Below, in pieces: positions 7,839-62,699 of a stretch of 64,000 nucleotides of DNA. Source of the DNA: Aedes albopictus (taxonomy: Eukaryota > Arthropoda > Insecta > Diptera > Culicidae). The number at the start of each line of letters is the position of its first letter. Positions within the stretch are counted from its first letter, which is position 1. Below the pieces are notes generated by a model. That model was not told the DNA's origin and did not search any database. It worked only from the letters and a program-made list of their open reading frames with translations. Made by a program: the position numbers and the translations under genes. The DNA lies in contig NC_085137.1 in the NCBI RefSeq assembly GCF_035046485.1, positions 441,382,334-441,446,333 of the forward strand, read 5' to 3'.

Positions 7839-8483
7839 ATATCAGCAAAATCTGGTAAATGCCAGTAAAGGGCAACATATATCAGTGTACTCTTGAAACC
7901 TCATTTTTTGACAGCAACTACGATTCGATATTCGCAATATTTGATGAGATTTTTCAATAGAGTTAATAAACTAAAGAGGACGAATGTCTCTGGTGTTCCC
8001 TTTGTTCTCGCTCGGGAACATGTCGGGTATCTATCTGTCAAACTGCATACTTTTTCGCTTTGACACTTATATCCCTGCCTATCTCCGCCAGCAAGAGATG
8101 TTGAGGCGACGACGACAGCGACATTCTTCCTCTATAGTTTATTAGCTCTATTGATTTTTCAGATAATGTTTTGACCCATACTTGCCCCTCTGACATATTG
8201 TCAACCCCAACGACGGACCTGAATGGAATAAAGAGTGTCTGCACAGAAAAAAATTCTGAAAACTACACGTGACGTAAATATAAGAACGCATAAATTTCCA
8301 TTTCATTTCATACGATTTTACATAGAAGAATCTCTTGCACGCAAAGTTGTATGCAAGCTTCATACTGCAGACAATCTGTAATTTTACAGTCCGATGGAGA
8401 ATTGTGTTGAAAGCGATGGAGGTCATTTTGTTACAACGAACTCGATGAAACAATTTTGAAATGTGAAAAGTCTATAGTTTAAA

Positions 8484-10357
8484 ATAAACTAGAATAGACT
8501 ACAATAGACTAGAATAGACTAGAGTAGACTAGAATTGATAAGAATAGACTTGAATAGACTAGAATAAACTAGAATATACTAGAATAGACTAGAACTAGAA
8601 TAGAACTAGAATATACTAGAATAGACTAGAATAGACTAGAATAGACTAGAATAGATTAGAATAGACTAGAATAGACTAGAATAAACTAGAATATACTAGA
8701 ATAGACTAGAACTAGAATAGAACTAGAATAGACTAGAATAGACTAGAATAAACTAGAACTAGAACTAGAATAGACTTGAATAGACTTGAATGGACTTGAA
8801 AAAACTAGAATAGACTAGAATAGACTAGAATAGACTAGAATAGACTAGAATAGACTAGAATAGACTAGAATAGACTAGAATAGACTAGAATAGACTAGAA
8901 TAGACTAGAATAGACTAGAATATACTAGAATAGACTAGAATAGACTAGAATAGACTAGAATAGACTAGAATAGACTAGAATAGACTAGAATAGACTAGAA
9001 TAGACTAGAATAGACTAGAATAGACTAGAATAGACTAGAATAGACTAGAATAGACTAGAATAGACTAGAATAGACTAGAATAGACTAGAATAGACTAGAA
9101 TAGACTAGAATAGACTAGAATAGACTAGAATAGACTAGAATAGACTAGAATAGACTAGAATAGACTAGAGTAGACTAGAATAGACTAGAATAGACTAGAA
9201 TAGACTAGAATAGACTAGAGTAGACTAGAATAGACTAGAATAGACTAGAATAGACTAGAATAGACTAGAATAGACTAGAATAGACTAGAATAGACTAGAA
9301 TAGACTAGAATAGACTAGAATAGACTAGAATAGACTAGAATAGACTAGAATAGACTAGAATAGACTAGAATAGACTAGAATAGACTAGAATAGACTAGAA
9401 TAGACTAGAATAGACTAGAATAGACTAGAATAGACTAGAATAGACTAGAATAGACTAGAATAGACTAGAATAGACTAGAATAGACTAGAATAGACTAGAA
9501 TAGACTAGAATAGACTAGAATAGACTAGAATAGACTAGAATAGACTAGAATAGACTAGAATAGACTAGAATAGACTAGAATAGACTAGAATAGACTAGAA
9601 TAGACTAGAATAGACTAGAATAGACTAGAATAGACTAGAATAGACTAGAATAGACTAGAATAGACTAGAATAGACTAGAATAGACTAGAATAGACTAGAA
9701 TAGACTAGAATAGACTAGAATAGACTAGAATAGACTAGAATAGACTAGAATAGACTAGAATAGACTAGAATAGACTAGAATAGACTAGAATAGACTAGAA
9801 TAGACTAGAATAGACTAGAATAGACTAGAATAGACTAGAATAGACTAGAATAGACTAGAATAGACTAGAATAGACTAGAATAGACTAGAATAGACTAGAA
9901 TAGACTAGAATAGACTAGAATAGACTAGAATAGACTAGAATAGACTAGAATAGACTAGAATAGACTAGAATAGACTAGAATAGACTAGAATAGACTAGAA
10001 TAGACTAGAATAGACTAGAATAGACTAGAATAGACTAGAATAGACTAGAATAGACTAGAATAGACTAGAATAGACTAGAATAGACTAGAATAGACTAGAA
10101 TAGACTAGAATAGACTAGAATAGACTAGAATAGACTAGAATAGACTAGAATAGACTAGAATAGACTAGAATAGACTAGAATAGACTAGAATAGACTAGAA
10201 TAGACTAGAATAGACTAGAATAGACTAGAATAGACTAGAATAGACTAGAATAGACTAGAATAGACTAGAATAGACTAGAATAGACTAGAATAGACTAGAA
10301 TAGACTAGAATAGACTAGAATAGACTAGAATAGACTAGAATAGACTAGAATAGACTA
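8484..10357. repeat. 10-bp tandem array (TAGACTAGAA)n, about 1.87 kb
   Basis: The first 330 bp are imperfect, with units such as TAGAACTAGAA and TAGACTTGAA. From about 8812 the 10-bp unit is nearly invariant for more than 1.5 kb; the exceptions I noticed are a TATAC unit near 8922 and AGAG units near 9170 and 9220. The array resumes after a 273-bp insertion. It encodes nothing. Such a homogeneous centre with a decayed edge implies recent expansion or gene-conversion-like turnover. The true length may not be reliably assembled. Confidence 0.97.
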
Positions 10358-32640: not shown

Positions 32641-35600
32641 AACACCACCCCCGGTGAAGACTGGCGCTTGAGCCTAGCTATTTAGCACTGTAGTTGGAGG
32701 AAATACCAATGCAGAACCCGTAGCTTCCGAGAAGGTAAGCCCAGCTCCCTGGGTTAGTGGGTTGATGTCAGGCCCTGCGAGCCAGCCGTAAAAAAGACTA
32801 GCACCGGAAAATCAACAAGAGAAGAATGCGAACCGATAGCAATGGCGACGACCACAGCGACGAAAAGGGACTCGTGATTGGAAGCTCGGTACGTGGAACT
32901 GCAGATCTCTCAACCTCATCGGGAGAACCCGCATACTCGCCGATATACTAAAGGACCGCGGCTTCGGAATCGTAGCGCTGCAGGAGGTGTGTTGGACAGG
33001 ATCTATGGTGCGAACGTTTAGAGGTAATCATACCATCTATGTACAAGAGTTGCGGCAACACACGTGAGCTGGGAACAGCTTTTATAGTGATGGCGACATG
33101 CAGAGGCGCGTGATCGGTTGGTCACCGATCGACGAAAGAATGTGCAGGTTGAGGATCAAGGGCCGATTCTTCAACATTAGCATAATAAACGTGCACAGCC
33201 CTCACTCCGGAAGCACTGATGATGACAATGACGCATTTTACGCGCAGCTCGAACGCGAGTACGACCGCTGCCCAAACCACGACGTCAAGATCATCATAGG
33301 GGATCTAAACGCTCAGGTAGGCCAGAAGGAGGAATTCAGACCGACGATTGGAAAGTTCAGCGCCCACCAGCTGACGAACGAAAATGGCCTACGTCTCATC
33401 GATTTCACCGCCTCCAAGAACATGGCCATTCGTAGCACCTTCTTCCAGTACAGCCTCCCGTATCGTTACACCTGGAGATCACCACAACAAACGGAATCGC
33501 AAACCGACCACGTTCTGACTGATGGACGACACTACTCCGACATTATCGACGTCAGGACCTATCGTGGCGTTAATATCGACTCTGATCACTACCTCGTCCG
33601 TGATGGTTAAACTGTGCCCAAAACTTTCCGTTATTCACAATGTACAGTACCGGCGGCCGTCCCGGTACGATCTAGAGCGACTGAAGCAACCGGATGTCGC
33701 CTCAGCATACGCGCAGAATCTCGAGGCAGCGTTGCCGGACGAGGGTGTGCTCGATGTGGCCCCTCTAGAGGACTGCTGGAGTACAGTCAAAGCAGCCATC
33801 AACAACGCAGCCGAGAGCACTATCGGGTACGTAGAACGGAGTCGACGAAACGATTGATTCGACGAGGAGTGCAGAGCGGTTCTGGAGGAGAAGGATGCAG
33901 CGCGGGCGGTAATGCTGCAGCATGGAACCCGACAGAATGTGGAGCGATACAGACAGAAGCGGAAGCAGCAGACCCGTCTCTTCCAGGAGAAAAAGCGCCG
34001 CCTGGAAGAAGCGGAGTGCGAGGAAAAGGAACAGCTGTGCCTTTCACAAGAAACACGTAAGTTCTACCAGAAGCTCAACGCATCCCGCAAAGGCTACGTG
34101 CCGCAAGCCGAAATCTGCAAAGATAAGTACAGCCTCCTGACGCACAAACGTGAGGTGATGGAAAGGTGGAAGCAGCACTTCGACGAGCACCTGAATGATG
34201 AAGAGAATGTAGGCACGGAGGACCAAGGCAGCGGAGGTAATGACTATGTTGGTGCAGCAGAGGACGGGAACGATCCAACTCCCACGCTGAGGGAAGTTAA
34301 GGATGCTATTCACCAGCTCAAAAACAACAAAGTGGCTGGTAAGGACGGTATCGCAGCAGAACTCATCAAGATGGGCCCGGAAAAGTTGGCCACCTATCTG
34401 CACCAGTTAGGAGTCAAGATCTGGGAACAGCTACCGGAGGAGTGGAAGGAAGGGATAATCTGTCCCATCCACAAGAAAGGTGACAAGTTAGTGTGTGAGA
34501 ACTTTCGAGCGATCACCATTTTGAATGCCGCCTACAAAGTGCTATCCCAGATCATCACCTAAAGTAAATGAGTTCGTGGGAAGTTATCAAGCCGGTTTCA
34601 TCGACGGCCGATCGACAACGGACCAGATCTTCACCGTACGGCAAATCCTCCAGAAATGTCGTGAATACCAGGTCTCAACGCACCACCTGTTCATCGACTT
34701 CAAAGCGGCATACGACAGCATCGACCGCACAGAACTATGGAAAATTATGGACGAGAACAGCTTTCCCGGGAAGCTTAACAGACTGATAAGAGCACGATGG
34801 ACGGTGTGCAGAACAGCGTAAGGATTTCGGGTAAACTATCCAGTTCATTCGAATCTCGACGGGGACTACGACAAGGTGATGGACTTTCCTGCCTACTATT
34901 CAACATCGCCCTGGAAGGTGTTATGCGACGAGCCGGGCTCAACAGCCGGGGTACGATCTTCACGAAATCCGGCCAATTTGTCTGTTTTGCGGATGACATG
35001 GATATTATTGCTAGAACATTTGGAACGGTGGCAGAACAGTTCACCCGCCTGAAACGTGAAGCAGCAAAGGTCGGACTGGTGGTGAATGCGGCTAAGACAA
35101 AGTACATGCTGGTAGGTGGGACTGAGCGAGACAGGACAAGCCTTGGCAGCAATGTTACGATAGACGGGGATACTTTCGAGGTGGTAGAAGAACTCGTCTA
35201 CCTCTGTTCCTTGCTAACGGCTGACAATAACGCGAGCCGTGAAATACGAAGGCGCATCATCAGTGGAAGTCGTGCCTACTATGGGCTCCAGAAGAAACTG
35301 CGGTCAAAAAAGAATCACCCCCGCACCAAATGTACCATGTACAAGTCGTTAATAAGACCGGTGGTTCTCTACGGACACGAGACATGGACGATGCTCGAGG
35401 AGGACCTGCAAGCACTTGGAGTTTTCGAGCGATGAACCACGAGCTCGCTGCACTTTACGGCGAACCCAGCATCCAGAAAGTGGCCAAAGCCGGAAGGATG
35501 CGGTGGGCAGGGCATGTTGCAAGAATGCCGGACAACAACTTTGCAAAGTTGGGGTTTGCTAACCATCTGGTTGGTACAAGAAGACGTGGAGCGCAGAGAG

Positions 35601-35705
35601 CACGCCAACGTTGGACGAGCTGCAGTTGTAATCGAGTATTATGGCGGCAAATTGTTGATTCAGTATTATCATGAATTTGATGTTAACTAAATAAATGAAA
35701 TAGTT
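32641..35705 (+). pseudogene. near-full-length RTE-clade non-LTR retrotransposon, inactivated
   Basis: The order is 5' leader (32641-32880), endonuclease, linker, reverse transcriptase, C-terminal region. The endonuclease begins LGTWNCRSLN near 32885; it shows IIGDLNAQVG near 33295 and DSDHYLV near 33580, the expected catalytic Asp/Asn and Ser-Asp-His blocks. The RT shows FIDFKAAYDSIDR (about 34690), GLRQGDGLSCLLFNIALE (about 34865) and the catalytic box FADDMD (34984-35001). The 3' part reads RMRWAGHVARM (about 35497). Total length of about 3 kb is close to the family norm. Breaks seen: frameshift with stop near 33068, stop 33608-33610, in-frame TGA 33855-33857, frameshifts near 34555, 34790 and 35430. 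It encoded target-primed retrotransposition, but this copy cannot now make the enzyme. Confidence 0.93.
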
Positions 35706-35720
35706 CAGTAGAGTAAAGTG
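35696..35720 (+). repeat. left copy of 25-bp target-site duplication
   Basis: Identical to 44138-44162; it starts TGAAATAGTTCAG. It spans the last bases of the RTE 3' end, the TA, and the first ten bases of the TA-flanked element 44153-45062. Confidence 0.9.
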
Positions 35721-38700
35721 AGCATGAGCATGAGCATAGATGACCGTACTATTCGTAGTTGCTACTCCGTGATTGACCAGAACAATCGAAGTTGCACAAG
35801 GAACCAACAGACGGAGCTTGGGAGTAGCTTACCGTCCTCAATGTGCATCTTCGAGAATTCCAAACTTTATTAGGTCAATAACGGCGCCGGCCACGTCCTT
35901 ACGGTCATCGAGGAAGGAAAGGAATGTTATTATGACGTGCGTTGCTTACTAAAGACCGAGATCACCTCTGCGTCTCCACGTCTGTCATGGGAAGGACTTT
36001 TTGTTAGTGGGGAGGGGAAAGGGCGCATGATATGAGTTCACTTTGGTAAGTGGAATGATTCATGCAACCCTATTAATATCAAACCACTTATTTTCATTTG
36101 GACTAAAACAAAACACATGCCGACATCGAAGATGACGAACCTTTCAGATAGTTTTCGAAGTGCGAAAATTAACGAAAGAGAAAATAAAGTGATTTGAACC
36201 AACGTGGCTTTGGAACTTGGGCCGACACTTGACGTGACGAACATTTCAATGTCTGTTGACTAAAATCGCAAAAAATGTTGTTTGTTGCATTTATCGTATC
36301 ATAAATCGCCCCGTACGAAGATGAGCAGTCAAATAGACGACGACGACGACGACCGAATGAAAACGCGGCCTGTACACTTTGCCTCCAAAAACTCACTCTC
36401 GCAAAAATCTAGCAAAGCGAGCGCGCGAAACTTTGCTGCTGCCGAACTACCGCACACTACTGACTGCTTGGCATCCCGTCGTCGGAGCCCCGCAGAGAGA
36501 AGGGGAAAGAAAATCGCAAAAATCTAGCAAAGCGAGCGCGCGAAACTTTGCTGCTGCCGAACTACCGCACACTACTGACTGCTTGGCATCACGTCGTCGG
36601 AGCCCCGCAGAGGGAAGAGGAAAAAAATCGCAAAAATCTAGCAAAGCGAGCGCGCGAAACTTTGCTGCTGCCGAACTACCGCACACTACTGACTGCTTGG
36701 CATCCCGTCGTCGGAGCCCCGCAGAGAGAAGGGGAAAGAAAATCGCAAAAATCTAGCAAAGCGAGCGCGCGAAACTTTGCTGCTGCCGAACTACCGCACA
36801 CTACTGACTGCTTGGCATCACGTCGTCGGAGCCCCGCAGAGGGAAGAGGAAAAAAATCGCAAAAATCTAGCAAAGCGAGCGCGCGAAACTTTGCTGCTGC
36901 CGAACTACCGCACACTACTGACTGCTTGGCATCCCGTCGTCGGAGCCCCGCAGAGAGAAGGGGAAAGAAAATCGCAAAAATCTAGCAAAGCGAGCGCGCG
37001 AAACTTTGCTGCTGCCGAACTACCGCACACTACTGACTGCTTGGCATCACGTCGTCGGAGCCCCGCAGAGAGAAGGGGAAAGAAAATCGCAAAAATCTAG
37101 CAAAGCGAGCGCGCGAAACTTTGCTGCTGCCGAACTACCGCACACTACTGACTGCTTGGCATCACGTCGTCGGAGCCCCGCAGAGAGAAGGGGAAAGAAA
37201 ATCGCAAAAATCTAGCAAAGCGAGCGCGCGAAACTTTGCTGCTGCCGAACTACCGCACACTACTGACTGCTTGGCATCCCGTCGTCGGAGCCCCGCAGAG
37301 AGAAGGGGAAAGAAAATCGCAAAAATCTAGCAAAGCGAGCGCGCGAAACTTTGCTGCTGCCGAACTACCGCACACTACTGACTGCTTGGCATCACGTCGT
37401 CGGAGCCCCGCAGAGAGAAGGGGAAAGAAAATCGCAAAAATCTAGCAAAGCGAGCGCGCGAAACTTTGCTGCTGCCGAACTACCGCACACTACTGACTGC
37501 TTGGCATCCCGTCGTCGGAGCCCCGCAGAGAGAAGGGGAAAGAAAATCGCAAAAATCTAGCAAAGCGAGCGCGCGAAACTTTGCTGCTGCCGAACTACCG
37601 CACACTACTGACTGCTTGGCATCACGTCGTCGGAGCCCCGCAGAGGGAAGAGGAAAAAAATCGCAAAAATCTAGCAAAGCGAGCGCGCGAAACTTTGCTG
37701 CTGCCGAACTACCGCACACTACTGACTGCTTGGCATCCCGTCGTCGGAGCCCCGCAGAGAGAAGGGGAAAGAAAATCGCAAAAATCTAGCAAAGCGAGCG
37801 CGCGAAACTTTGCTGCTGCCGAACTACCGCACACTACTGACTGCTTGGCATCACGTCGTCGGAGCCCCGCAGAGGGAAGAGGAAAAAAATCGCAAAAATC
37901 TAGCAAAGCGAGCGCGCGAAACTTTGCTGCTGCCGAACTACCGCACACTACTGACTGCTTGGCATCCCGTCGTCGGAGCCCCGCAGAGAGAAGGGGAAAG
38001 AAAATCGCAAAAATCTAGCAAAGCGAGCGCGCGAAACTTTGCTGCTGCCGAACTACCGCACACTACTGACTGCTTGGCATCACGTCGTCGGAGCCCCGCA
38101 GAGGGAAGAGGAAAAAAATCGCAAAAATCTAGCAAAGCGAGCGCGCGAAACTTTGCTGCTGCCGAACTACCGCACACTACTGACTGCTTGGCATCACGTC
38201 GTCGGAGCCCCGCAGAGAGAAGGGGAAAGAAAATCGCAAAAATCTAGCAAAGCGAGCGCGCGAAACTTTGCTGCTGCCGAACTACCGCACACTACTGACT
38301 GCTTGGCATCACGTCGTCGGAGCCCCGCAGAGAGAAGGGGAAAGAAAATCGCAAAAATCTAGCAAAGCGAGCGCGCGAAACTTTGCTGCTGCCGAACTAC
38401 CGCACACTACTGACTGCTTGGCATCACGTCGTCGGAGCCCCGCAGAGGGAAGAGGAAAAAAATCGCAAAAATCTAGCAAAGCGAGCGCGCGAAACTTTGC
38501 TGCTGCCGAACTACCGCACACTACTGACTGCTTGGCATCCCGTCGTCGGAGCCCCGCAGAGAGAAGGGGAAAGAAAATCGCAAAAATCTAGCAAAGCGAG
38601 CGCGCGAAACTTTGCTGCTGCCGAACTACCGCACACTACTGACTGCTTGGCATCACGTCGTCGGAGCCCCGCAGAGGGAAGAGGAAAAAAATCGCAAAAA

Positions 38701-41700
38701 TCTAGCAAAGCGAGCGCGCGAAACTTTGCTGCTGCCGAACTACCGCACACTACTGACTGCTTGGCATCACGTCGTCGGAGCCCCGCAGAGAGAAGGGGAA
38801 AGAAAATCGCAAAAATCTAGCAAAGCGAGCGCGCGAAACTTTGCTGCTGCCGAACTACCGCACACTACTGACTGCTTGGCATCACGTCGTCGGAGCCCCG
38901 CAGAGGGAAGAGGAAAAAAATCGCAAAAATCTAGCAAAGCGAGCGCGCGAAACTTTGCTGCTGCCGAACTACCGCACACTACTGACTGCTTGGCATCACG
39001 TCGTCGGAGCCCCGCAGAGGGAAGAGGAAAAAAATCGCAAAAATCTAGCAAAGCGAGCGCGCGAAACTTTGCTGCTGCCGAACTACCGCACACTACTGAC
39101 TGCTTGGCATCACGTCGTCGGAGCCCCGCAGAGAGAAGGGGAAAGAAAATCGCAAAAATCTAGCAAAGCGAGCGCGCGAAACTTTGCTGCTGCCGAACTA
39201 CCGCACACTACTGACTGCTTGGCATCCCGTCGTCGGAGCCCCGCAGAGAGAAGGGGAAAGAAAATCGCAAAAATCTAGCAAAGCGAGCGCGCGAAACTTT
39301 GCTGCTGCCGAACTACCGCACACTACTGACTGCTTGGCATCACGTCGTCGGAGCCCCGCAGAGAGAAGGGGAAAGAAAATCGCAAAAATCTAGCAAAGCG
39401 AGCGCGCGAAACTTTGCTGCTGCCGAACTACCGCACACTACTGACTGCTTGGCATCCCGTCGTCGGAGCCCCGCAGAGAGAAGGGGAAAGAAAATCGCAA
39501 AAATCTAGCAAAGCGAGCGCGCGAAACTTTGCTGCTGCCGAACTACCGCACACTACTGACTGCTTGGCATCACGTCGTCGGAGCCCCGCAGAGGGAAGAG
39601 GAAAAAAATCGCAAAAATCTAGCAAAGCGAGCGCGCGAAACTTTGCTGCTGCCGAACTACCGCACACTACTGACTGCTTGGCATCCCGTCGTCGGAGCCC
39701 CGCAGAGAGAAGGGGAAAGAAAATCGCAAAAATCTAGCAAAGCGAGCGCGCGAAACTTTGCTGCTGCCGAACTACCGCACACTACTGACTGCTTGGCATC
39801 ACGTCGTCGGAGCCCCGCAGAGAGAAGGGGAAAGAAAATCGCAAAAATCTTGCAAAGCGAGCGCGCGAAACTTTGCTGCTGCCGAACTACCGCACACTAC
39901 TGACTGCTTGGCATCCCGTCGTCGGAGCCCCGCAGAGAGAAGGGGAAAGAAAATCGCAAAAATCTAGCAAAGCGAGCGCGCGAAACTTTGCTGCTGCCGA
40001 ACTACCGCACACTACTGACTGCTTGGCATCACGTCGTCGGAGCCCCGCAGAGGGAAGAGGAAAAAAATCGCAAAAATCTAGCAAAGCGAGCGCGCGAAAC
40101 TTTGCTGCTGCCGAACTACCGCACACTACTGACTGCTTGGCATCCCGTCGTCGGAGCCCCGCAGAGAGAAGGGGAAAGAAAATCGCAAAAATCTAGCAAA
40201 GCGAGCGCGCGAAACTTTGCTGCTGCCGAACTACCGCACACTACTGACTGCTTGGCATCACGTCGTCGGAGCCCCGCAGAGGGAAGAGGAAAAAAATCGC
40301 AAAAATCTAGCAAAGCGAGCGCGCGAAACTTTGCTGCTGCCGAACTACCGCACACTACTGACTGCTTGGCATCCCGTCGTCGGAGCCCCGCAGAGAGAAG
40401 GGGAAAGAAAATCGCAAAAATCTAGCAAAGCGAGCGCGCGAAACTTTGCTGCTGCCGAACTACCGCACACTACTGACTGCTTGGCATCACGTCGTCGGAG
40501 CCCCGCAGAGGGAAGAGGAAAAAAATCGCAAAAATCTAGCAAAGCGAGCGCGCGAAACTTTGCTGCTGCCGAACTACCGCACACTACTGACTGCTTGGCA
40601 TCACGTCGTCGGAGCCCCGCAGAGAGAAGGGGAAAGAAAATCGCAAAAATCTAGCAAAGCGAGCGCGCGAAACTTTGCTGCTGCCGAACTACCGCACACT
40701 ACTGACTGCTTGGCATCACGTCGTCGGAGCCCCGCAGAGGGAAGAGGAAAAAAATCGCAAAAATCTAGCAAAGCGAGCGCGCGAAACTTTGCTGCTGCCG
40801 AACTACCGCACACTACTGACTGCTTGGCATCACGTCGTCGGAGCCCCGCAGAGGGAAGAGGAAAAAAATCGCAAAAATCTAGCAAAGCGAGCGCGCGAAA
40901 CTTTGCTGCTGCCGAACTACCGCACACTACTGACTGCTTGGCATCACGTCGTCGGAGCCCCGCAGAGAGAAGGGGAAAGAAAATCGCAAAAATCTAGCAA
41001 AGCGAGCGCGCGAAACTTTGCTGCTGCCGAACTACCGCACACTACTGACTGCTTGGCATCCCGTCGTCGGAGCCCCGCAGAGAGAAGGGGAAAGAAAATC
41101 GCAAAAATCTAGCAAAGCGAGCGCGCGAAACTTTGCTGCTGCCGAACTACCGCACACTACTGACTGCTTGGCATCACGTCGTCGGAGCCCCGCAGAGAGA
41201 AGGGGAAAGAAAATCGCAAAAATCTAGCAAAGCGAGCGCGCGAAACTTTGCTGCTGCCGAACTACCGCACACTACTGACTGCTTGGCATCACGTCGTCGG
41301 AGCCCCGCAGAGGGAAGAGGAAAAAAATCGCAAAAATCTAGCAAAGCGAGCGCGCGAAACTTTGCTGCTGCCGAACTACCGCACACTACTGACTGCTTGG
41401 CATCCCGTCGTCGGAGCCCCGCAGAGAGAAGGGGAAAGAAAATCGCAAAAATCTAGCAAAGCGAGCGCGCGAAACTTTGCTGCTGCCGAACTACCGCACA
41501 CTACTGACTGCTTGGCATCACGTCGTCGGAGCCCCGCAGAGGGAAGAGGAAAAAAATCGCAAAAATCTAGCAAAGCGAGCGCGCGAAACTTTGCTGCTGC
41601 CGAACTACCGCACACTACTGACTGCTTGGCATCACGTCGTCGGAGCCCCGCAGAGGGAAGAGGAAAAAAATCGCAAAAATCTAGCAAAGCGAGCGCGCGA

Positions 41701-44137
41701 AACTTTGCTGCTGCCGAACTACCGCACACTACTGACTGCTTGGCATCACGTCGTCGGAGCCCCGCAGAGGGAAGAGGAAAAAAATCGCAAAAATCTAGCA
41801 AAGCGAGCGCGCGAAACTTTGCTGCTGCCGAACTACCGCACACTACTGACTGCTTGGCATCCCGTCGTCGGAGCCCCGCAGAGAGAAGGGGAAAGAAAAT
41901 CGCAAAAATCTAGCAAAGCGAGCGCGCGAAACTTTGCTGCTGCCGAACTACCGCACACTACTGACTGCTTGGCATCACGTCGTCGGAGCCCCGCAGAGAG
42001 AAGGGGAAAGAAAATCGCAAAAATCTAGCAAAGCGAGCGCGCGAAACTTTGCTGCTGCCGAACTACCGCACACTACTGACTGCTTGGCATCCCGTCGTCG
42101 GAGCCCCGCAGAGAGAAGGGGAAAGAAAATCGCAAAAATCTAGCAAAGCGAGCGCGCGAAACTTTGCTGCTGCCGAACTACCGCACACTACTGACTGCTT
42201 GGCATCACGTCGTCGGAGCCCCGCAGAGGGAAGAGGAAAAAAATCGCAAAAATCTAGCAAAGCGAGCGCGCGAAACTTTGCTGCTGCCGAACTACCGCAC
42301 ACTACTGACTGCTTGGCATCCCGTCGTCGGAGCCCCGCAGAGAGAAGGGGAAAGAAAATCGCAAAAATCTAGCAAAGCGAGCGCGCGAAACTTTGCTGCT
42401 GCCGAACTACCGCACACTACTGACTGCTTGGCATCACGTCGTCGGAGCCCCGCAGAGGGAAGAGGAAAAAAATCGCAAAAATCTAGCAAAGCGAGCGCGC
42501 GAAACTTTGCTGCTGCCGAACTACCGCACACTACTGACTGCTTGGCATCCCGTCGTCGGAGCCCCGCAGAGAGAAGGGGAAAGAAAATCGCAAAAATCTA
42601 GCAAAGCGAGCGCGCGAAACTTTGCTGCTGCCGAACTACCGCACACTACTGACTGCTTGGCATCACGTCGTCGGAGCCCCGCAGAGGGAAGAGGAAAAAA
42701 ATCGCAAAAATCTAGCAAAGCGAGCGCGCGAAACTTTGCTGCTGCCGAACTACCGCACACTACTGACTGCTTGGCATCACGTCGTCGGAGCCCCGCAGAG
42801 AGAAGGGGAAAGAAAATCGCAAAAATCTAGCAAAGCGAGCGCGCGAAACTTTGCTGCTGCCGAACTACCGCACACTACTGACTGCTTGGCATCACGTCGT
42901 CGGAGCCCCGCAGAGAGAAGGGGAAAGAAAATCGCAAAAATCTAGCAAAGCGAGCGCGCGAAACTTTGCTGCTGCCGAACTACCGCACACTACTGACTGC
43001 TTGGCATCACGTCGTCGGAGCCCCGCAGAGGGAAGAGGAAAAAAATCGCAAAAATCTAGCAAAGCGAGCGCGCGAAACTTTGCTGCTGCCGAACTACCGC
43101 ACACTACTGACTGCTTGGCATCCCGTCGTCGGAGCCCCGCAGAGAGAAGGGGAAAGAAAATCGCAAAAATCTAGCAAAGCGAGCGCGCGAAACTTTGCTG
43201 CTGCCGAACTACCGCACACTACTGACTGCTTGGCATCACGTCGTCGGAGCCCCGCAGAGGGAAGAGGAAAAAAATCGCAAAAATCTAGCAAAGCGAGCGC
43301 GCGAAACTTTGCTGCTGCCGAACTACCGCACACTACTGACTGCTTGGCATCACGTCGTCGGAGCCCCGCAGAGAGAAGGGGAAAGAAAATCGCAAAAATC
43401 TAGCAAAGCGAGCGCGCGAAACTTTGCTGCTGCCGAACTACCGCACACTACTGACTGCTTGGCATCACGTCGTCGGAGCCCCGCAGAGAGAAGGGGAAAG
43501 AAAATCGCAAAAATCTAGCAAAGCGAGCGCGCGAAACTTTGCTGCTGCCGAACTACCGCACACTACTGACTGCTTGGCATCCCGTCGTCGGAGCCCCGCA
43601 GAGAGAAGGGGAAAGAAAATCGCAAAAATCTAGCAAAGCGAGCGCGCGAAACTTTGCTGCTGCCGAACTACCGCACACTACTGACTGCTTGGCATCACGT
43701 CGTCGGAGCCCCGCAGAGGGAAGAGGAAAAAAATCGCAAAAATCTAGCAAAGCGAGCGCGCGAAACTTTGCTGCTGCCGAACTACCGCACACTACTGACT
43801 GCTTGGCATCCCGTCGTCGGAGCCCCGCAGAGAGAAGGGGAAAGAAAATCGCAAAAATCTAGCAAAGCGAGCGCGCGAAACTTTGCTGCTGCCGAACTAC
43901 CGCACACTACTGACTGCTTGGCATCACGTCGTCGGAGCCCCGTAGAGGGAAGAGGAAAAAAATCGCAAAAATCTTGCAAAGCGAGCGCGCGAAACTTTGC
44001 TGCTGCCGAACTACCGCACACTACTGACTGCTTGGCATCACGTCGTCGGAGCCCCGCAGAGGGAAGAGGAAAAAAATCGCAAAAATCTAGCAAAGCGAGC
44101 GCGCGAAACTTTGCTGCTGCCGAACTACCGCACACTC
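35721..44137 (-). mobile_element. 8417-bp retroposon-like insertion: tandem 5' monomers, body, CATGCT-type 3' tail
   Basis: The segment is flanked by an exact 25-bp direct repeat (35696-35720, 44138-44162), the size expected for target-primed retrotransposition. Read on the minus strand, it starts AGTGTGCGG inside a 114/115-bp monomer and runs through about 67 tandem monomers to 36399. It then continues with a unique body of about 0.68 kb and finishes CATGCTCATGCT. The last ~280 bp (35721-36000) match 57500-57796, the end of a second retroposon in the window. No reverse transcriptase is encoded, so it would be non-autonomous. The layout resembles LINE 5' UTRs made of promoter monomers. Alternatively the array expanded after insertion. 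Confidence 0.75.
36399..44136 (-). repeat. satellite array of 114/115-bp monomers, about 67 copies
   Basis: Each monomer contains AGCGAGCGCGCGAAACTTTG, CTACCGCACACTACTGACTG and GTCGTCGGAGCCCCGCAGAG in that order (plus strand). Two linked variable sites define three monomer types. The base after CATC is C or A, and the tail is AGAGAGAAGGGGAAAG (115 bp) or AGAGGGAAGAGGAAAA (114 bp). C occurs only with the long tail. Identity is otherwise near 100 percent. Rare variants are CTTGCA for CTAGCA (near 39848 and 43972) and CGTAGAG (near 43940). Frames of 69-221 codons follow from the period not being a multiple of three, and are not genes. Confidence 0.97.
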
Positions 44138-44162
44138 TGAAATAGTTCAGTAGAGTAAAGTG
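44138..44162 (+). repeat. right copy of 25-bp target-site duplication
   Basis: Identical to 35696-35720. Here it runs without a break into the rest of the TA-flanked element, showing that this was the original target. Confidence 0.9.
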
Positions 44163-45062
44163 GGGCAAAAGTTCGAGTGGGGCAAGAGTTTCTTTTGAAG
44201 TTTTTGAGCTCAATACAAATTATTTCTTTCGGGTGTCAAGGTTGTTCGAAGCCTTTTTGAAAAAGAGTCTTTCACTTCAAAAATTATGAAAATTGATCAA
44301 TAATTCGAAAAGTTACGACAAAATGTTGGTTTTTGATCAAAAAATTGTGATATGCGATGGTCCTTCCAACGCATGGAATGGAATTGTAATGAAATCGATT
44401 TCGATATTTTATTTTGGGGCGTAACTAGGTATATCTTGAAGATTCTTTAGCATGTATAACTTTTTGCAAAAAAGATTTGGAAATCATATTTTACACATAG
44501 TGGGGCAAAAGTTCGATTTGTGGGGCAAGAAAGAGTTCGAGTCATGTAGCAACTTTAGGTAAAAACCTAAAATTCTGCAAAATGTACATATTAACACTAA
44601 AAATGATGGAATTAGTGAGAAAATTCGATTAAAGTTGAAGAAAAAATGTTTCATCCGAATTTGGCGGAAAACTACTTTTTTGTGTAGTAAATTTAACTCT
44701 GATTTGGGTAAAATCCAGATCGAACTTTGTAAGTGTATTTCAGGTTCAAGATCAAATATTAATTGGTTTTAGGTATTCAGATTACCAAAGTGTCGAAATA
44801 GTGTGCTACGGTTAGTGGAATTCCACAAACACTAGATTCGAACTTTTGCCCCAGTGGTGGGGCAAGAGTTCGAATTAGACACACACATACAAAAAGTGTT
44901 GTAACTCAAAACTGAAAAGACATTTGGCGTAACTTTGTTCAGCAAATGTTTAGCTCATGGATGATAGAATCACCACACGGTATTTCTTTATTTTTATCTG
45001 CTTCGATTTCTTGAAAAAAGTTGAATTTTCAACTAAGGTCGAACTTTTGCCCCACCTTACTC
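44153..45062. mobile_element. TA-flanked element, 910 bp, GAGTAAAGTGGGGCAAAAG termini
   Basis: The left end reads GAGTAAAGTGGGGCAAAAGT and the right end is its inverse with one mismatch. TA lies at both sides (44151-44152, 45063-45064). At least five further copies of GGGGCAA(A)AGTTCGA occur inside in both orientations (about 44175, 44510, 44522, 44848, 44862). Its first ten bases are duplicated at 35711-35720 because the 8.4-kb insertion landed there. No transposase is present. Confidence 0.88.
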
Positions 45063-45065
45063 TAT

Positions 45066-45745
45066 TGGTTAGCTCTTGATGTCCTGAACGACCTTGTCGA
45101 AGATGAAATTCTGAAATTCTTCTATGTAGTCTGATTCTCAAGATACGGAAATTCCGAATTTTTAGAGCCCACTTACGCCATCTAGCGGAAAGCCTACAAC
45201 CAACTAGCAACCTTGCTGAAGACATAATTCTTCTATGTAGTCGGGTTCTCGAGATACAGAGGTTAAAATTTTTTAAGGACTCACTAGCGCCACCTAACGG
45301 ATAAACCTAGAACCAACAAGTTCACTATCGGATTGCTCTTGGTGTTCTGATCAACCTTGCCGAAGACGAAATTCTTCTATGAAGTCGGATTCTCGAGATA
45401 CAGAGGTTTTTTTAGGACTCACTAGCGCCACCTAACGGATAAACCTAGAACCAACTAATTCACTATCAGATAGCTCTTGATGTTCTGATCAACCTTGCTG
45501 AGAACGAAATTCTTCTATGAAGTCGGATTCTCGAGATACAGAGGTTTAAATTTTTTAGGACTCACTAGCGCCACCTACCGGATAAACCCTGAACCAACAA
45601 GTTCACTATCGGATAGCTCTTGGTGTCCTGATGAACCTTGCCGAAGATGAAATTCTTCTATGTAGTCGGATTCTCGAGATACAGAGGTTTAAATTTTTAG
45701 GACTCACTAGCGCCGCCTAACGGATAAATCCAGAACCAACTAGTG
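45066..45745. repeat. ~142-bp tandem repeat, about five units
   Basis: Units carry TCTCGAGATACAGAGGTT (near 45247, 45391, 45530 and 45672), TTAGGACTCACTAGCGCCAC and CTTGCCGAAGA. The first unit is the most diverged. Read on the minus strand, the unit resembles the 54384-54967 array. Confidence 0.9.
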
Positions 45746-46825: not shown

Positions 46826-47222
46826 TAAAAGATAGAAGATAGAAGATAGAAGATAGGAAGATAGGAAGACAGGAAGATATGAAGATAGGAAGATAGGAAG
46901 ATTGCAAGATAGGAAGATAGGAAGATAAGAAGATAGGAAGATAAGAAGATAGGAAGATAGGATGATAGGAAGACAGGGAGATAGGATGATAGGAAGATAG
47001 GAAGATAGGAAGATAGGGAGATATGAAGATAGGTAGATAGGAAGGTAGGAAGATGGGAAGATAGGAAGATAGGAAGATAGTAAGATAGGAAGATAGAGAG
47101 ATACGAAGATAGGAAGATAGGAAGATAGGAAGATAGAAAGATACGAAGATAGGAAGATAGGAAGATAGGAAGATAGGAAGATAGGAGGATAGGAAGATAG
47201 GAAGATACGAAGATAGGAAGTA
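46826..47222. repeat. (AGGAAGATAG)n array, about 400 bp
   Basis: An imperfect array of GAAGATAG/GGAAGATA units, mostly 8-10 bp. It begins with AGAAGATAG units and ends at GAAGTATAG. The 145-codon minus-strand frame with Leu/Ser/Tyr-Pro repeats is an artefact of this array. A sister array lies at 51689-51833. Confidence 0.95.
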
Positions 47223-47309
47223 TAGTAGGCATTGGTGAATAAGTCTAAAACAACGTAGGCACTGACTTAAGCTAATGACAAGGGCTTATGACTATTACCC
47301 AATTAAACG

Positions 47310-50614: not shown

Positions 50615-51690
50615 GTAACGAGGACATCTTTTCAAGAAACAAATTTTCCAAATCAACAACAACTTTCTAATGAAATTGGTGATGAAGACCACACTTTTGC
50701 AAACACAAAATTTTCAAACAAATTACATCAAGATGAGCTGTCAGCAATACTTCCTACGTTTTCTGGTAATTATCATGAAGATGTAAACCATTTTTTGAAG
50801 ATATTGAACAATACGAAACAAGTTTTACAAGTGAATGAATTCACCATGAAATTGGTTTTAATCAAGCAATTGAAACAAAAGGCACAAACCTGGCTATTTT
50901 CAAAAGCGGATTTCATGCTCAAAAGTTATCAAGATTTATGTCAAGAATTACAAGCCGTTTTCGATGTCAGCAACGTATACCAATTAAGAACTCAACTTGC
51001 GAAAAGGACCTGGTCAGAACGAGAAAATTTTGAAGAATACTATCAGTCAAAAAGAATATTTGCCCAAAAACTCAACTTACCGGAGGAAGAATTCGTGCAA
51101 TATCTCGTTGAGGGAATCGAAGATCAAACACTACGCAATCAGGCCCGAATCCGAAATTTCAAAAACGTGAACGACGTGATTCAAGCATTCCGTTTGATTC
51201 AATCGGATCCTGTGCCATTTAGGAGAAAGATGTCGCTTTGTTATTCGTGCAGTCAACCCGGACATTTTGCGGCAGAATGCAGATTCATCAACAATCATCT
51301 GAAAGATAGAAGCCTCGAAAAGAAAAATGTATCACCACCAACGCAAAAGCTATCCGACAAGACTGTAAACGTTTTAGAGGACGAAGATTCGAAACAAAAG
51401 GACGAACAAGTACAATGTGACGGTATAGTAAACTTTAGATTTTTAAACAGTACTACACATTTAAAGGCACTCTTTGACACGGAAAGCCCAATCTCACTGA
51501 TACGCCGAGGTTTGATCGATTGAAAACGGATTAAAATAATAGATCAATCCAAAACTTACCAGGGTATCGGTGGGAGTAAGCTTAAAGTTTTAGGATTGTT
51601 CACCACCAAAATTCTTATACAAAACATTATTTTTAACATTGATTTTCATGTAGCTCCGGATAATGTACTTAACCTCATCGATGCAAAATT
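50615..51690 (+). pseudogene. LTR-retrotransposon gag with zinc knuckle and truncated protease
   Basis: Continuing the frame from 47310, the region 50700-51200 resembles a retrotransposon gag/capsid domain (motifs ELSAILPTFSG, WLFSKADFML, RTWSERENFEEYYQ). A CCHC zinc knuckle CYSCSQPGHFAAEC follows at 51239-51280, and then a Lys/Asp-rich linker. The start of an aspartic protease is seen at ALFDTESPISLI (51470-51505), in which the usual catalytic DTG/DSG reads DTE. A stop (TGA) ends the frame at 51521-51523. Protease-like sequence continues to about 51690 (LNLIDAKLG), where an AGGAAGATAG array replaces everything downstream. No RT or integrase is present. Gag packages element RNA; this copy is dead. 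Ty3-like affinity is likely but unproven. Confidence 0.85.
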
Positions 51691-51833
51691 AGGAAGATAG
51701 GAGGATAGGAAGATAGGAAGATAGGAAGATAGCAAGATAGGAAGATAGGAAGATAGGAGGATAGTAAGATAGGAAGATAGGAAGGTAGGAAGATAGGAAG
51801 ATAGGAAGATAGGAAGATGGAAGATAGAAGATA
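51689..51833. repeat. (AGGAAGATAG)n array, second copy
   Basis: About 15 units of AGGAAGATAG with variants (GGAGGATAG, AGCAAGATAG). It begins abruptly in the protease frame and ends in AGAAGATAGAGAATAAAAG. It has the same unit and orientation as 46826-47222. Confidence 0.95.
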
Positions 51834-51834
51834 G

Positions 51835-56742: not shown

Positions 56743-57408
56743 AACATGGCCATGCTAAATACCCGTACGCTTACCGCATCTACTTGAGGAGTTTCAAGAT
56801 GGACACTCTCCCTTTTACTTTTTATGCTCCAAGTCCCTTTCTAACCTTATGATCGTGTTGTTCCTTGCTGTGCATGCATCTCTCCTGATGGGGTGAGTAA
56901 ATATTGCAGCATAATCGATCGAGTTCGCCATGGTCTCGCGCGATAACGAAAAGAATATAATATCATTGGTTTGTCGCGTTTAGTTCATTCCTGTGTGGAA
57001 TGGGCTTAAAGCTTCTACTCCCTAATGAGGTGAAGACGCGCGACAGCATTTCTTTTAGTACACGTGTTCTCGTATAACATGGCCATGCTAAATACCCGTA
57101 CGCTTACCGCATCTACTTGAGGAGTTTCAAGATGGACACTCTCCCTTTTACTTTTTATGCTCCAAGTCCCTTTCTAACCTTATGATCGTGTTGTTCCTTG
57201 CTGTGCATGCATCTCTCCTGATGGGGTGAGTAAATATTGCAGCATAATCGATCGAGTTCGCCATGGTCTCGCGCGATAACGAAAAGAATATAATATCATT
57301 GGTTTGTCGCGTTTAGTTCATTCCTGTGTGGAATGGGCTTAAAGCTTCTACTCCCTAATGAGGTGAAGACGCGCGACAGCATTTCTTTTAGTACACGTGT
57401 TCTCGTAT
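56743..57408 (+). repeat. perfect 333-bp tandem duplication
   Basis: The units 56743-57075 and 57076-57408 appear identical base for base. Each unit consists of target-flank DNA (to CTAACCTTAT) plus the first ~225 bp of the retroposon 57184-57796, so the duplication spans the 5' junction of that insertion. Confidence 0.9.
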
Positions 57409-57796
57409 AAAAAAGTGGTCGATTTTGCGCGAAAGTTAGTGTTTATTGATCCTTTGTTAGATCACATCACCAACCGTACGTAACTCCCAGACTAACAATG
57501 TACCCTACCCTGCTAACAAAAATTCCTTCCCAAGACAATCGTGGAGACACTGAGATTTCCGGTCTCTATAACAACGGTTGTCTTAATAACATTCCTTTCC
57601 CTCCTCGATGGCCGTAAGGACGTGGCCGGCGCCGTTATTGACCTTACTAAAGTTGAGAGCTCTCTAACTGTGTATATTGAGAATAGTAAGCTAGTCCCAA
57701 GCCCTATGCATTGGTTCCTTGTGCAATTAAGATTGCTCTTGTCAATCTCTGAGTAGCAACTACGAATTGTGCGGCCATCTATGGTCATGCATACTC
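57184..57796 (+). mobile_element. 613-bp retroposon sharing its 3' module with the 8.4-kb insertion
   Basis: A 27-bp direct repeat (57157-57183 and 57797-57823; core CCAAGTCCCTTTCTAACC) brackets the segment. The first few bases, ATGC, may belong to the tail. The 3' portion (57500-57796) matches the minus strand of 35721-36000. Shared landmarks are TAACATTCCTTTCC, GTAAGGACGTGGCCGGCGCC, GAGTAGCAACTACGAAT and the CATGCAT.CTCATGC end. The 5' portion is unrelated to that element. A 71-codon frame (57541-57756) runs through the shared part but is not conserved in phase, so I do not call it a gene. Confidence 0.7.
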
Positions 57797-57903
57797 ATGC
57801 TCCAAGTCCCTTTCTAACCTTATCTTTCATGGAAAGACTCTAAAACCATCCTGAAGATTCATTGAAACTCTCCTAGATCAAGAAACGCCATTGAAGCCCT
57901 CGT

Positions 57904-61394: not shown

Positions 61395-62699
61395 TACCAA
61401 GCGAACTTCTAAAATACGGTGAAGAAGCACTGGTGAGAGCACTACACTGGTTCATTACCAAGATTTGGGAGGAGGAAGTATTACCGGAGGAATGGATGGA
61501 TGGTATCGTGTGTCCCATCTACAAAAAGGGCGACAAGTTGGATTGCGGGAACTACCGCGCGATCACACTACTGAGCGCTGGCTGCCTACAAGATACTCTC
61601 TCAAATTTTATACCGCCGCCTATCACCGATTGCAAGAGAGTTCGGCTGGATTCATGGGTGAACGCGCTACAACGGACCAGATGTTCGCCATCTGCCAGGT
61701 GTTGCAGAAATGCCGCGAATACAACGTGCCCACACATCACTTGTTCATCGATTTCAAATCGGCGTATAATACAATCGATCGAGAACAGCTATGGCAGATT
61801 ATGCACGAATACGGATTCCCGGATAAACTGATACGGTTGATCAAGGCGACGATGGAACGAGTGATGTGCGTAGTTCGAGTATCAGGGACACTCTCGAGTC
61901 CCTTCGAATCTCGCAGAGGGTTACGGCAAGGTGATAGTCTTTCATGCTTGCTGTTCAACATTGCTTTAGAAGGTGGAATTAGGAGAGCGGAAATAAACAC
62001 GAATGGAACGATTTTCACGAAGTCCGTTCAGCTGCTTGGTTTCGCTGATGATATTGATATTATTGCTCGTAAATTTGAGACGATGGCGGAAACGTACAAG
62101 CCAAGCGAATCGGATTAGTCATTAATGTGTCCAAGACAAATTACATGATGGCAAAGGGCTCCAGGGAGGATTCATCGCACCCGCCATACCGAATTTATAT
62201 CGACGGTGATGAAATCGAGGCAGTTGAAGAATTCGAGTACTTGGGCTCACTGGTGACCGCCGACAACGACACCAGCAGAGAAATTCAGAGGCGCATTGTG
62301 GCAGGAAATCGTGCTTACTTTGAACTCCGCAGAACTCTACAATCGAATAAAGTTCGCCGTAACACGAAGTTGACTATCTACAAAACGCTGATTAGACCGG
62401 TCGTCCTCTATGGGCAACGCGCCCTTGGAGTTTTTCGAACGGAAGGTGTTGCGTACCATCTACGACGGAGTGCAGATGGAAGACGGGACTTGGAGAAGGC
62501 GAATGAACCACGAGCTGCATCAGCTGTTTAGAGAACCAACCATTGTCATACCACGAAAATCGGAAGGCTACGGTGGACGGGTCACGTCATCAGGATGTCG
62601 GATACTGGAGACAAACAGCCATGGACCGAGTGGAATGGAGGCGGCTACTATGTACAGCACCCCGGCCTTAGCCTGATCGGTAAGGTAAGTAAGTGGTGA

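Follow-up and report, generated by a model that had tools for sequence, protein, structure and literature searches.

SVA elements of hominids are non-autonomous composites that are moved in trans by a LINE and carry a tandem array of variable length, and mouse L1 is an autonomous element with two ORFs. In mouse L1 (A, Gf and Tf) tandem monomers are located at the 5′ end, their number varies from copy to copy, and the outermost one is cut at the transcription start (PMC6454616, PMC9022269); in the portions of these accounts drawn on here, young subfamilies have 3–4 monomers on average, with more than 10 monomers at seven loci (PMC9022269). Satellites derived from transposable elements (TEs) form a further group (UTR-derived, HeT-A, Tetris, Helentron and LTR-derived), in which a TE segment seeds the satellite (PMC9659126, PMC7004042, PMC7492417), and both 5′ and 3′ UTRs are named as satellite sources in the part of a review of such satellites used here (PMC9659126).

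The Aedes albopictus DNA presented above, whose whole 64,000-nucleotide length we refer to as the window, contains an insertion with features of each of these systems. It is very probably a non-autonomous, LINE-dependent retroposon with promoter monomers, inserted with one or, most likely, more complete monomers and followed by growth of the array to 67 monomers at this locus.

The insertion and its monomer array

The insertion lies between two exact copies of a 25-bp direct repeat, TGAAATAGTTCAGTAGAGTAAAGTG, at positions 35696–35720 and 44138–44162, and there is no third plus-strand copy in the whole window. The original prediction had such a repeat bracketing 35721–44137, and these coordinates are right. 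The two copies behave as a real target-site duplication generated by the insertion, because the left end of a terminal-inverted-repeat (TIR) element is split between them. The arms of this element (44148–44176 and 45039–45067) are 93% complementary, and the right copy of the 25-bp repeat continues into the whole 29-bp arm, whereas the left copy holds only the arm's outer 15 bp; an older direct repeat that existed before the insertion is rejected for the same reason. On the minus strand the order is target duplication, an extra G, a 60-bp partial monomer, 67 complete monomers, a 678-bp body with a CATGCT tail, and target duplication, which bears out the predicted layout of 114/115-bp monomers, a body of ~0.7 kb and a CATGCT tail. 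The features are as follows.

35696–35720, no strand: left copy of the target-site duplication (element 3′ side), an exact 25-bp match to 44138–44162 in which only 15 bp of the TIR tip are kept
35721–36398, minus strand: body, 678 bp, without a long ORF; one of 40 near-full-length places scored genome-wide
35721–35738, minus strand: CATGCT tail; two to four units are present near the 3′ end in 38 of 39 other copies and a single unit in one
35739–35909, minus strand: 3′ structured domain, with a predicted RNA fold and pairing kept relative to element 2
36302–36397, minus strand: M2 unit (body positions 2–97), a single copy here and tandem 93–97-bp monomers in other copies
36399–44136, minus strand: M1 array of 67 complete 114/115-bp monomers and a 60-bp partial one, from TRF and unit splitting (25 of type A, 22 of type B, 17 of type C and three singletons)
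44077–44136, minus strand: partial monomer at the outer end, beginning 3 nt downstream of the A in an initiator-like TCAGTAG
44137, minus strand: extra G, in neither monomer nor target, as from a cap
44138–44162, no strand: right copy of the target-site duplication (element 5′ side), an exact match to the left copy
44148–45067, no strand: TIR element with paired arms, its left end hit by the retroposon insertion
57184–57801, plus strand: element 2, a relative whose 5′ half differs, flanked by a target duplication at 57162–57183 and 57802–57823

TRF places the array at 36399–44140 with 67.6 copies of 115 bp, and also reports periods of 229 and 344 bp. Splitting into units gives 68 starts, corresponding to 67 complete monomers (40 of 115 bp and 27 of 114 bp) and one partial monomer at the right end, so that the predicted count of about 67 stands, the length being that in one assembly. 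The monomers are very similar to each other. All but three of the complete ones fall into three exact types, the others being singletons; types A and C are two substitutions and one indel apart, types B and C are separated by one substitution, and the array as a whole has six haplotypes, with 3 monomers at least 2 substitutions apart. A string of 14 monomer types recurs 40 monomers away, a length reached by none of 2000 shuffles and by 5 of 2000 first-order Markov strings, and a greedy parse of the type order requires just 20 copy phrases, as few as which were seen in none of 1000 shuffles. The array has hence undergone block duplication, either here or in its source.

A dispersed family and the origin of its arrays

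The original prediction proposed searching the assembly for the body and the 115-bp monomer (M1), and doing so in one 1.344-Gb assembly (1494 contigs) reveals a dispersed family. The body search gives 40 near-full-length places including the window (the best 40 scored of 2965 candidates), and the 39 other copies were taken together with 4 kb of upstream sequence; as the best matches to the window body, they are biased towards its subfamily. Exact junctions between M1 and the body are present 157 times genome-wide, with none for a reversed-pattern control, and a 31-base landmark of the monomer has 3,674 exact matches, again with none for its control. Bodies without monomers had been expected to speak against a mobile array, and they do occur, in 10 of the 39 other copies, but M1 matches are present in the remaining 29.

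Monomer numbers, junctions and flanking duplications were tabulated for these copies. Target duplications of at least 15 bp are present in 34 of 38 copies (the window and 37 others) and of at least 12 bp in 35 of 38; mispaired controls give 0 of 74 and 4 of 74, respectively, and the threshold was hence set at 15 bp. Three copies (L021, L044 and L046) have no match of 12 bp and one (L039) has just 12, and the tandem pair L030 and L031 was excluded from this count, from the 5′-end count and from the comparison of array length with age, L030 being omitted from one of the unit counts as well. The median duplication is 22.5 bp among the 26 copies with M1. As is typical of LINE-dependent retroposons, the target duplications vary in length within about 10–30 bp, and the copies have a common 3′ end with a simple-repeat tail and a variable 5′ end.

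Array length, calculated as the distance from target duplication to body divided by 115 (values for L011, L026 and L033 contain some M2), ranges from 0.45 to 120.8 monomers with a median of 3.73 among the 25 copies with a target duplication and measured M1. The sizes found represent stages of 0.5 to 12 monomers, 17–20, 67 and 121; per-copy unit counts are too low where the monomer chain is broken (e.g. L015 and L016). The longest array, L047 on C1, has 121 landmarks spanning 13.9 kb within a perfect 27-bp duplication, and contains 32 haplotypes. Both this array (120 complete units) and that of the window (67 units, six haplotypes) are long, homogeneous tandem arrays of the kind that constitutes satellite DNA. 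With many separate insertions found, the broader claim of the original prediction, that this is a non-LTR-mobilised element with tandem 5′ monomers like those of mouse L1 and that it disperses satellite-like arrays, is supported.

Comparison of monomers with their adjacent bodies indicates that, at the level of the family, multi-monomer arrays entered with the RNA. For this purpose only monomers at least 2 substitutions apart were counted, as plain haplotypes overstate the diversity (L016 has 8 haplotypes, only 3 of which are so far apart). There are 4 such monomers in L009 and 3 each in L016 and L019, all with no private changes in the body, and 14 in L047, whose body has 2 private changes. 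In L042, all 9 of 9 monomers are distinct, 7 being at least 2 substitutions apart, with a mean difference of 3.7%, and the body has 2 private changes in 678. The absence of any change in 678 positions limits divergence since insertion to about 0.4% or less, and the arrays hold 0.7–1.0% per lineage; because the body limit lies below the within-array divergence, several distinct monomers were inserted together.

At the window locus, the outermost partial monomer is without the 54–55 bp upstream of the start, from which it follows that at least one complete monomer was inserted; a single partial monomer as the sole inserted unit is rejected, as it cannot supply these bases. The RNA most likely contributed at least two complete monomers, representing two types, because a- and b-type blocks are mixed in the window array and in other insertions too, and the window B monomer has exact copies in L019, L022 and L046.

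In contrast, most of the 67-monomer length is probably the product of amplification, either at the site once the element had inserted or in a source copy that the assembly does not contain. First, a private variant base is present in 44 of the 67 monomers (types A and C and two singletons), and a 30-base word containing it has 44 matches in the 1.34-Gb genome, all of them within the window array. Second, the mean difference within the window array is 0.0134, the second lowest of 17 arrays, against 0.0351 between its monomers and those of other loci. The original prediction had also offered an alternative, in which a short insertion carried one or a few monomers that were amplified later; later amplification probably does account for most of the 67, judging by the 44 that share the private variant, but the family inserts multi-monomer arrays. 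L047 is comparable in this respect: a variant word occurs 17 times in its own array and once at each of four other places, as would result from the scattering of one monomer by retrotransposition followed by amplification at one site. The private variant of the window may nonetheless have spread in a source copy that the assembly lacks. The monomers of L016 are 0.0142 different within the locus and 0.0394 between loci and its body is unmutated, and locus-only monomer features beside an unmutated body mean that such sharing can predate insertion. Steady array growth with age is unsupported, array length being uncorrelated with private body changes (Spearman 0.10, p 0.62, 27 copies).

These data bear on whether one insertion event, copied from an 8.4-kb RNA, delivered the entire 67-monomer array with no growth at the site, which we regard as unlikely. 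Such an event would be consistent with the window 5′ end being 3 nt from the initiator A and having an extra G, with long arrays at other loci (121 monomers), with the co-insertion of distinct monomers elsewhere, and with the lack of correlation between array length and body age. However, with a variant in 44 monomers unique to the window array, the source array would have to be absent from the assembly, and there are only six haplotypes among the 67 monomers. It is quite unlikely, too, that the copy number of 67 is an assembly artefact and the true array is shorter or longer: near-identical monomers do assemble poorly and a single assembly was used, but the three types are interleaved in a non-periodic order, the flanks are ordinary, and there is a second giant array with 32 haplotypes.

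5′ ends, the 3′ domain and a second body

The 5′ ends of the copies suggest where transcription begins. Among 28 M1 5′ ends placed by script, 19 are no more than 5 nt from the A in the initiator-like TCAGTAG (expected share 11/115, binomial p 1e-13). Nine are exactly on this A, and another five, that of the window among them, are 3 nt downstream; four of the 28 (L018, L029, L043 and L045) really sit at the body start or junction. On visual inspection, L042 begins on the initiator A and L014 roughly 20 nt upstream; the monomers of L027 are preceded by other DNA. A recount by eye places 20 of 25 ends near the initiator. Given ends at this site, many arrays measure about 0.5, 1.5 or 3.5 monomers. 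One extra G is present at 13 of the 28 script-placed ends, including that of the window, and a leading G is also seen in L034 and L035, whose starts are at a different site (TCATTC) within the M2 unit. An extra G copied from the cap is known from other LINE insertions, and those seen here are presumably caps copied by reverse transcriptase. The TCAGTAG site matches 5 of the 6 bases of the fly initiator consensus, and there is no DPE-like match at the position inspected (AAAGTT at +28). We infer from these sequence features that the monomers are transcribed by Pol II.

A Pol III SINE with a duplicated head would also have a short body without a long ORF, and the body does contain one B-box-like site with one mismatch. 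Similar one-mismatch sites are found elsewhere, however (8 in the remainder of the window, counting both strands), and no A box is present in body or monomers at one mismatch. The RNA strand of the array has 135 runs of at least 4 T, at which Pol III would terminate; transcription by that enzyme is therefore disfavoured, and we consider such an origin very improbable.

The 3′ ~300 bp of the body and 57503–57801 of element 2 share 80.5% identity. The 3′ domain of the window element is predicted to form a single long hairpin (z −5.76, with 0 of 200 shuffles as stable), and the opposite strand folds almost equally well (−61.1 versus −68.2 kcal/mol); the element 2 domain by itself folds weakly (z −1.17, 26 of 200 shuffles). 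When the two are aligned, pairs are kept in 93.9% of cells versus 29–45% when the alignment is slid, and two-sided changes number 5, where shuffles average 2.5 and 8 of 500 have 5 or more. Conserved 3′ pairing across the window element and element 2 is suggested rather than proven by this comparison, because it involves two sequences with the structure taken from one of them. We think that the 3′ structured domain is probably the site read by the reverse transcriptase of a partner LINE. The element itself has no Rfam match at E 1, a protein search with one monomer reading frame gives no match at E 0.001, and exact-pattern scans of viral and prokaryote contigs give no matches.

The copies without M1 are of several kinds. 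Four (L018, L020, L034 and L035) begin in tandem or partial repeats of the second monomer, three (L013, L043 and L045) begin at body position 1 or no more than 1 base from it, some 10 bp of monomer are left in L029, and the body is preceded by other DNA in L038 and L044. Extra M2 units (body positions 2–97) number 11 in L018, 8 in L035, 2 in L033, and one each in L011, L020 and L026.

M1 is also associated with more than one body. The first 100 landmark places listed form 16 clusters in the first 52.6 Mb of C1, of which five have an exact junction. Each of the other 11 listed clusters in this region leads into a body of the family, which is truncated in two cases. Confinement of the monomers to unrelated satellite loci, which the original prediction had named as adverse, is thus not what is seen in this region. 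Two of the 11 (L077 and L080) have the window body behind an altered junction, and the other nine lead into a second body, which we refer to as body2. The body2 copies L075, L076 and L078 have about 83% identity to element 2 over nearly 500 bp, and have the same 3′ domain. In L081 and L082, body2 ends after 233 and 76 bp and is followed by other DNA; these were considered as possible autonomous relatives and rejected, there being no long ORF in 740 bp. No autonomous partner came to light. Because M1 clusters adjoin both the window body and body2, the monomer array is, as judged from its sequence context, a module common to different bodies. That a satellite came first and was captured next to, or transduced by, an unrelated retroposon is hardly credible, for although the arrays are satellite-like in their homogeneity and dimer period, there are 157 exact monomer–body junctions (the 100 listed being on C1, C2 and C3), all 11 clusters without the exact junction among those listed in the first 52.6 Mb of C1 join a family body, and separate insertions end 5′ at the same monomer base.

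We therefore favour a LINE-dependent retroposon with promoter monomers, and propose that it would operate as follows. Pol II would start at the initiator-like TCAGTAG, present once per 115-bp monomer, and a capped RNA would extend from one monomer through all downstream monomers to the body with its folded 3′ domain and CATGCT tail. The reverse transcriptase of a presumed LINE, acting in trans, would read the 3′ hairpin and tail and insert a copy with a target duplication of ~22 bp. With its own start in every monomer, the element would retain a 5′ end despite start-site choice and truncation, and an insertion could carry a ready-made array. The window RNA would have contained the partial monomer together with at least one complete monomer, and most likely with two or more that represented two types, after which block duplication and exchange (unequal exchange or replication slippage) would have enlarged the array to 67. 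Both the growth at this site, as opposed to in a source since lost, and the way in which monomers were exchanged are inferred.

We also put forward a more tentative idea, which falls somewhat short of probable, that a self-renewing promoter of this type acts as a mobile satellite nursery. The monomers would be both start site and unit of homology, with arrays being spread by retrotransposition and re-grown by exchange, the M1/M2 pool would serve several bodies as exchangeable modules, and single insertions could mature into arrays of more than 10 kb.

Comparison with known systems

Among the literature titles searched (Repbase and most subscription papers being outside the search) none was found that describes this mosquito family, and the sections used here of a review of TE-derived satellites describe no case of such a kind (PMC9659126). 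The family resembles SINEs that share a LINE 3′ end in having no long ORF and in having a 3′ domain that is common to the window body, element 2 and body2, each with a different 5′ part; unlike such SINEs, no Pol III head with A and B boxes was found at its 5′ end, which has tandem monomers instead. It can be likened by description to SVA, as it is non-autonomous, is presumably moved in trans by a LINE, and has a tandem array of variable length. The SVA array, however, is internal and shorter and is not known to be a set of start sites, and the mosquito tail is CATGCT and not poly-A.

The likeness to mouse L1 is in the tandem 5′ monomers, whose number varies per copy and the outermost of which is cut at the presumed transcription start. 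Ends at an initiator-like site in separate copies are consistent with promoter monomers of the mouse L1 type, and tandem 5′ promoter monomers, which are best known from rodent L1, would thereby be extended to a non-autonomous insect retroposon. Unlike mouse L1, the mosquito element has no long ORF that could correspond to ORF1 or ORF2, and its 3′ end and tail are different. Its monomers are 115 and about 93 bp in length with up to 121 per array, which is far beyond the class of more than 10 monomers reported for mouse, as given in the portion of that study cited here (PMC9022269).

For known TE-derived satellites, as treated in the portions of the accounts cited above, the link between TE and satellite is made by sequence similarity, and the origin of a satellite from a TE is usually inferred backwards from it. 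The mosquito arrays that were measured each lie within a target duplication of their own and adjoin a body with countable mutations, and insertion and later growth can be judged separately, the former by body mutations and the latter by locus-private variants. Many stages are present in one genome, most of them marked by a target duplication, and together they illustrate how a jumping element can plant satellite DNA.

Variant copies of the retroposon family

In L027, a family copy elsewhere in the assembly, approximately 350 bp of non-monomer DNA separates the 17-bp target duplication from the first monomer, and this stretch is perhaps the product of an RNA started upstream (5′ transduction). 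Two complete bodies, the 678-bp part 3′ of the monomers, lie in tandem at C3:77164546-77166208 (L030 and L031), 988 bp apart and with monomers between them; the pair is possibly a duplicated element. A further long array of the 114/115-bp monomer M1 is located in cluster G000 (C1:52568390-52575610 and beyond), where it is joined to the second M1-carrying body type, body2 (copy L075), and contains at least 29 exact copies of the 31-base landmark word among the matches listed.

A tandem duplication at element 2

Within the window, a 333-bp unit is present in two exact tandem copies at 56743-57410, and is composed of about 108 bp of flank, including the target duplication, followed by the first approximately 225 bp of the family relative element 2. 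The duplication either arose after insertion or is an assembly duplicate. This unit contains flank, whereas the units of the window array do not.

Short-unit arrays, relics and other matches

Short-unit tandem arrays in the window
8483-10357: 10-bp unit AATAGACTAG, about 188 copies
46829-47225 and 51690-51834: 8-bp unit (AAGATAGG; TAGGAAGA)

Within the terminal-inverted-repeat element, a weak snoZ162-like match (44704-44788; 31.7 bits versus a gathering threshold of 45) is perhaps due to chance. A 34-bp segment at 30463-30496 matches the family's 3′ end and tail at 85%, and is perhaps the relic of a third copy. A broken LINE (33068-35674), which stops shortly before the window retroposon insertion, retains part of a reverse transcriptase along with a weak endonuclease match that falls below the cutoff, and has a 64% relative at 61750-62416.
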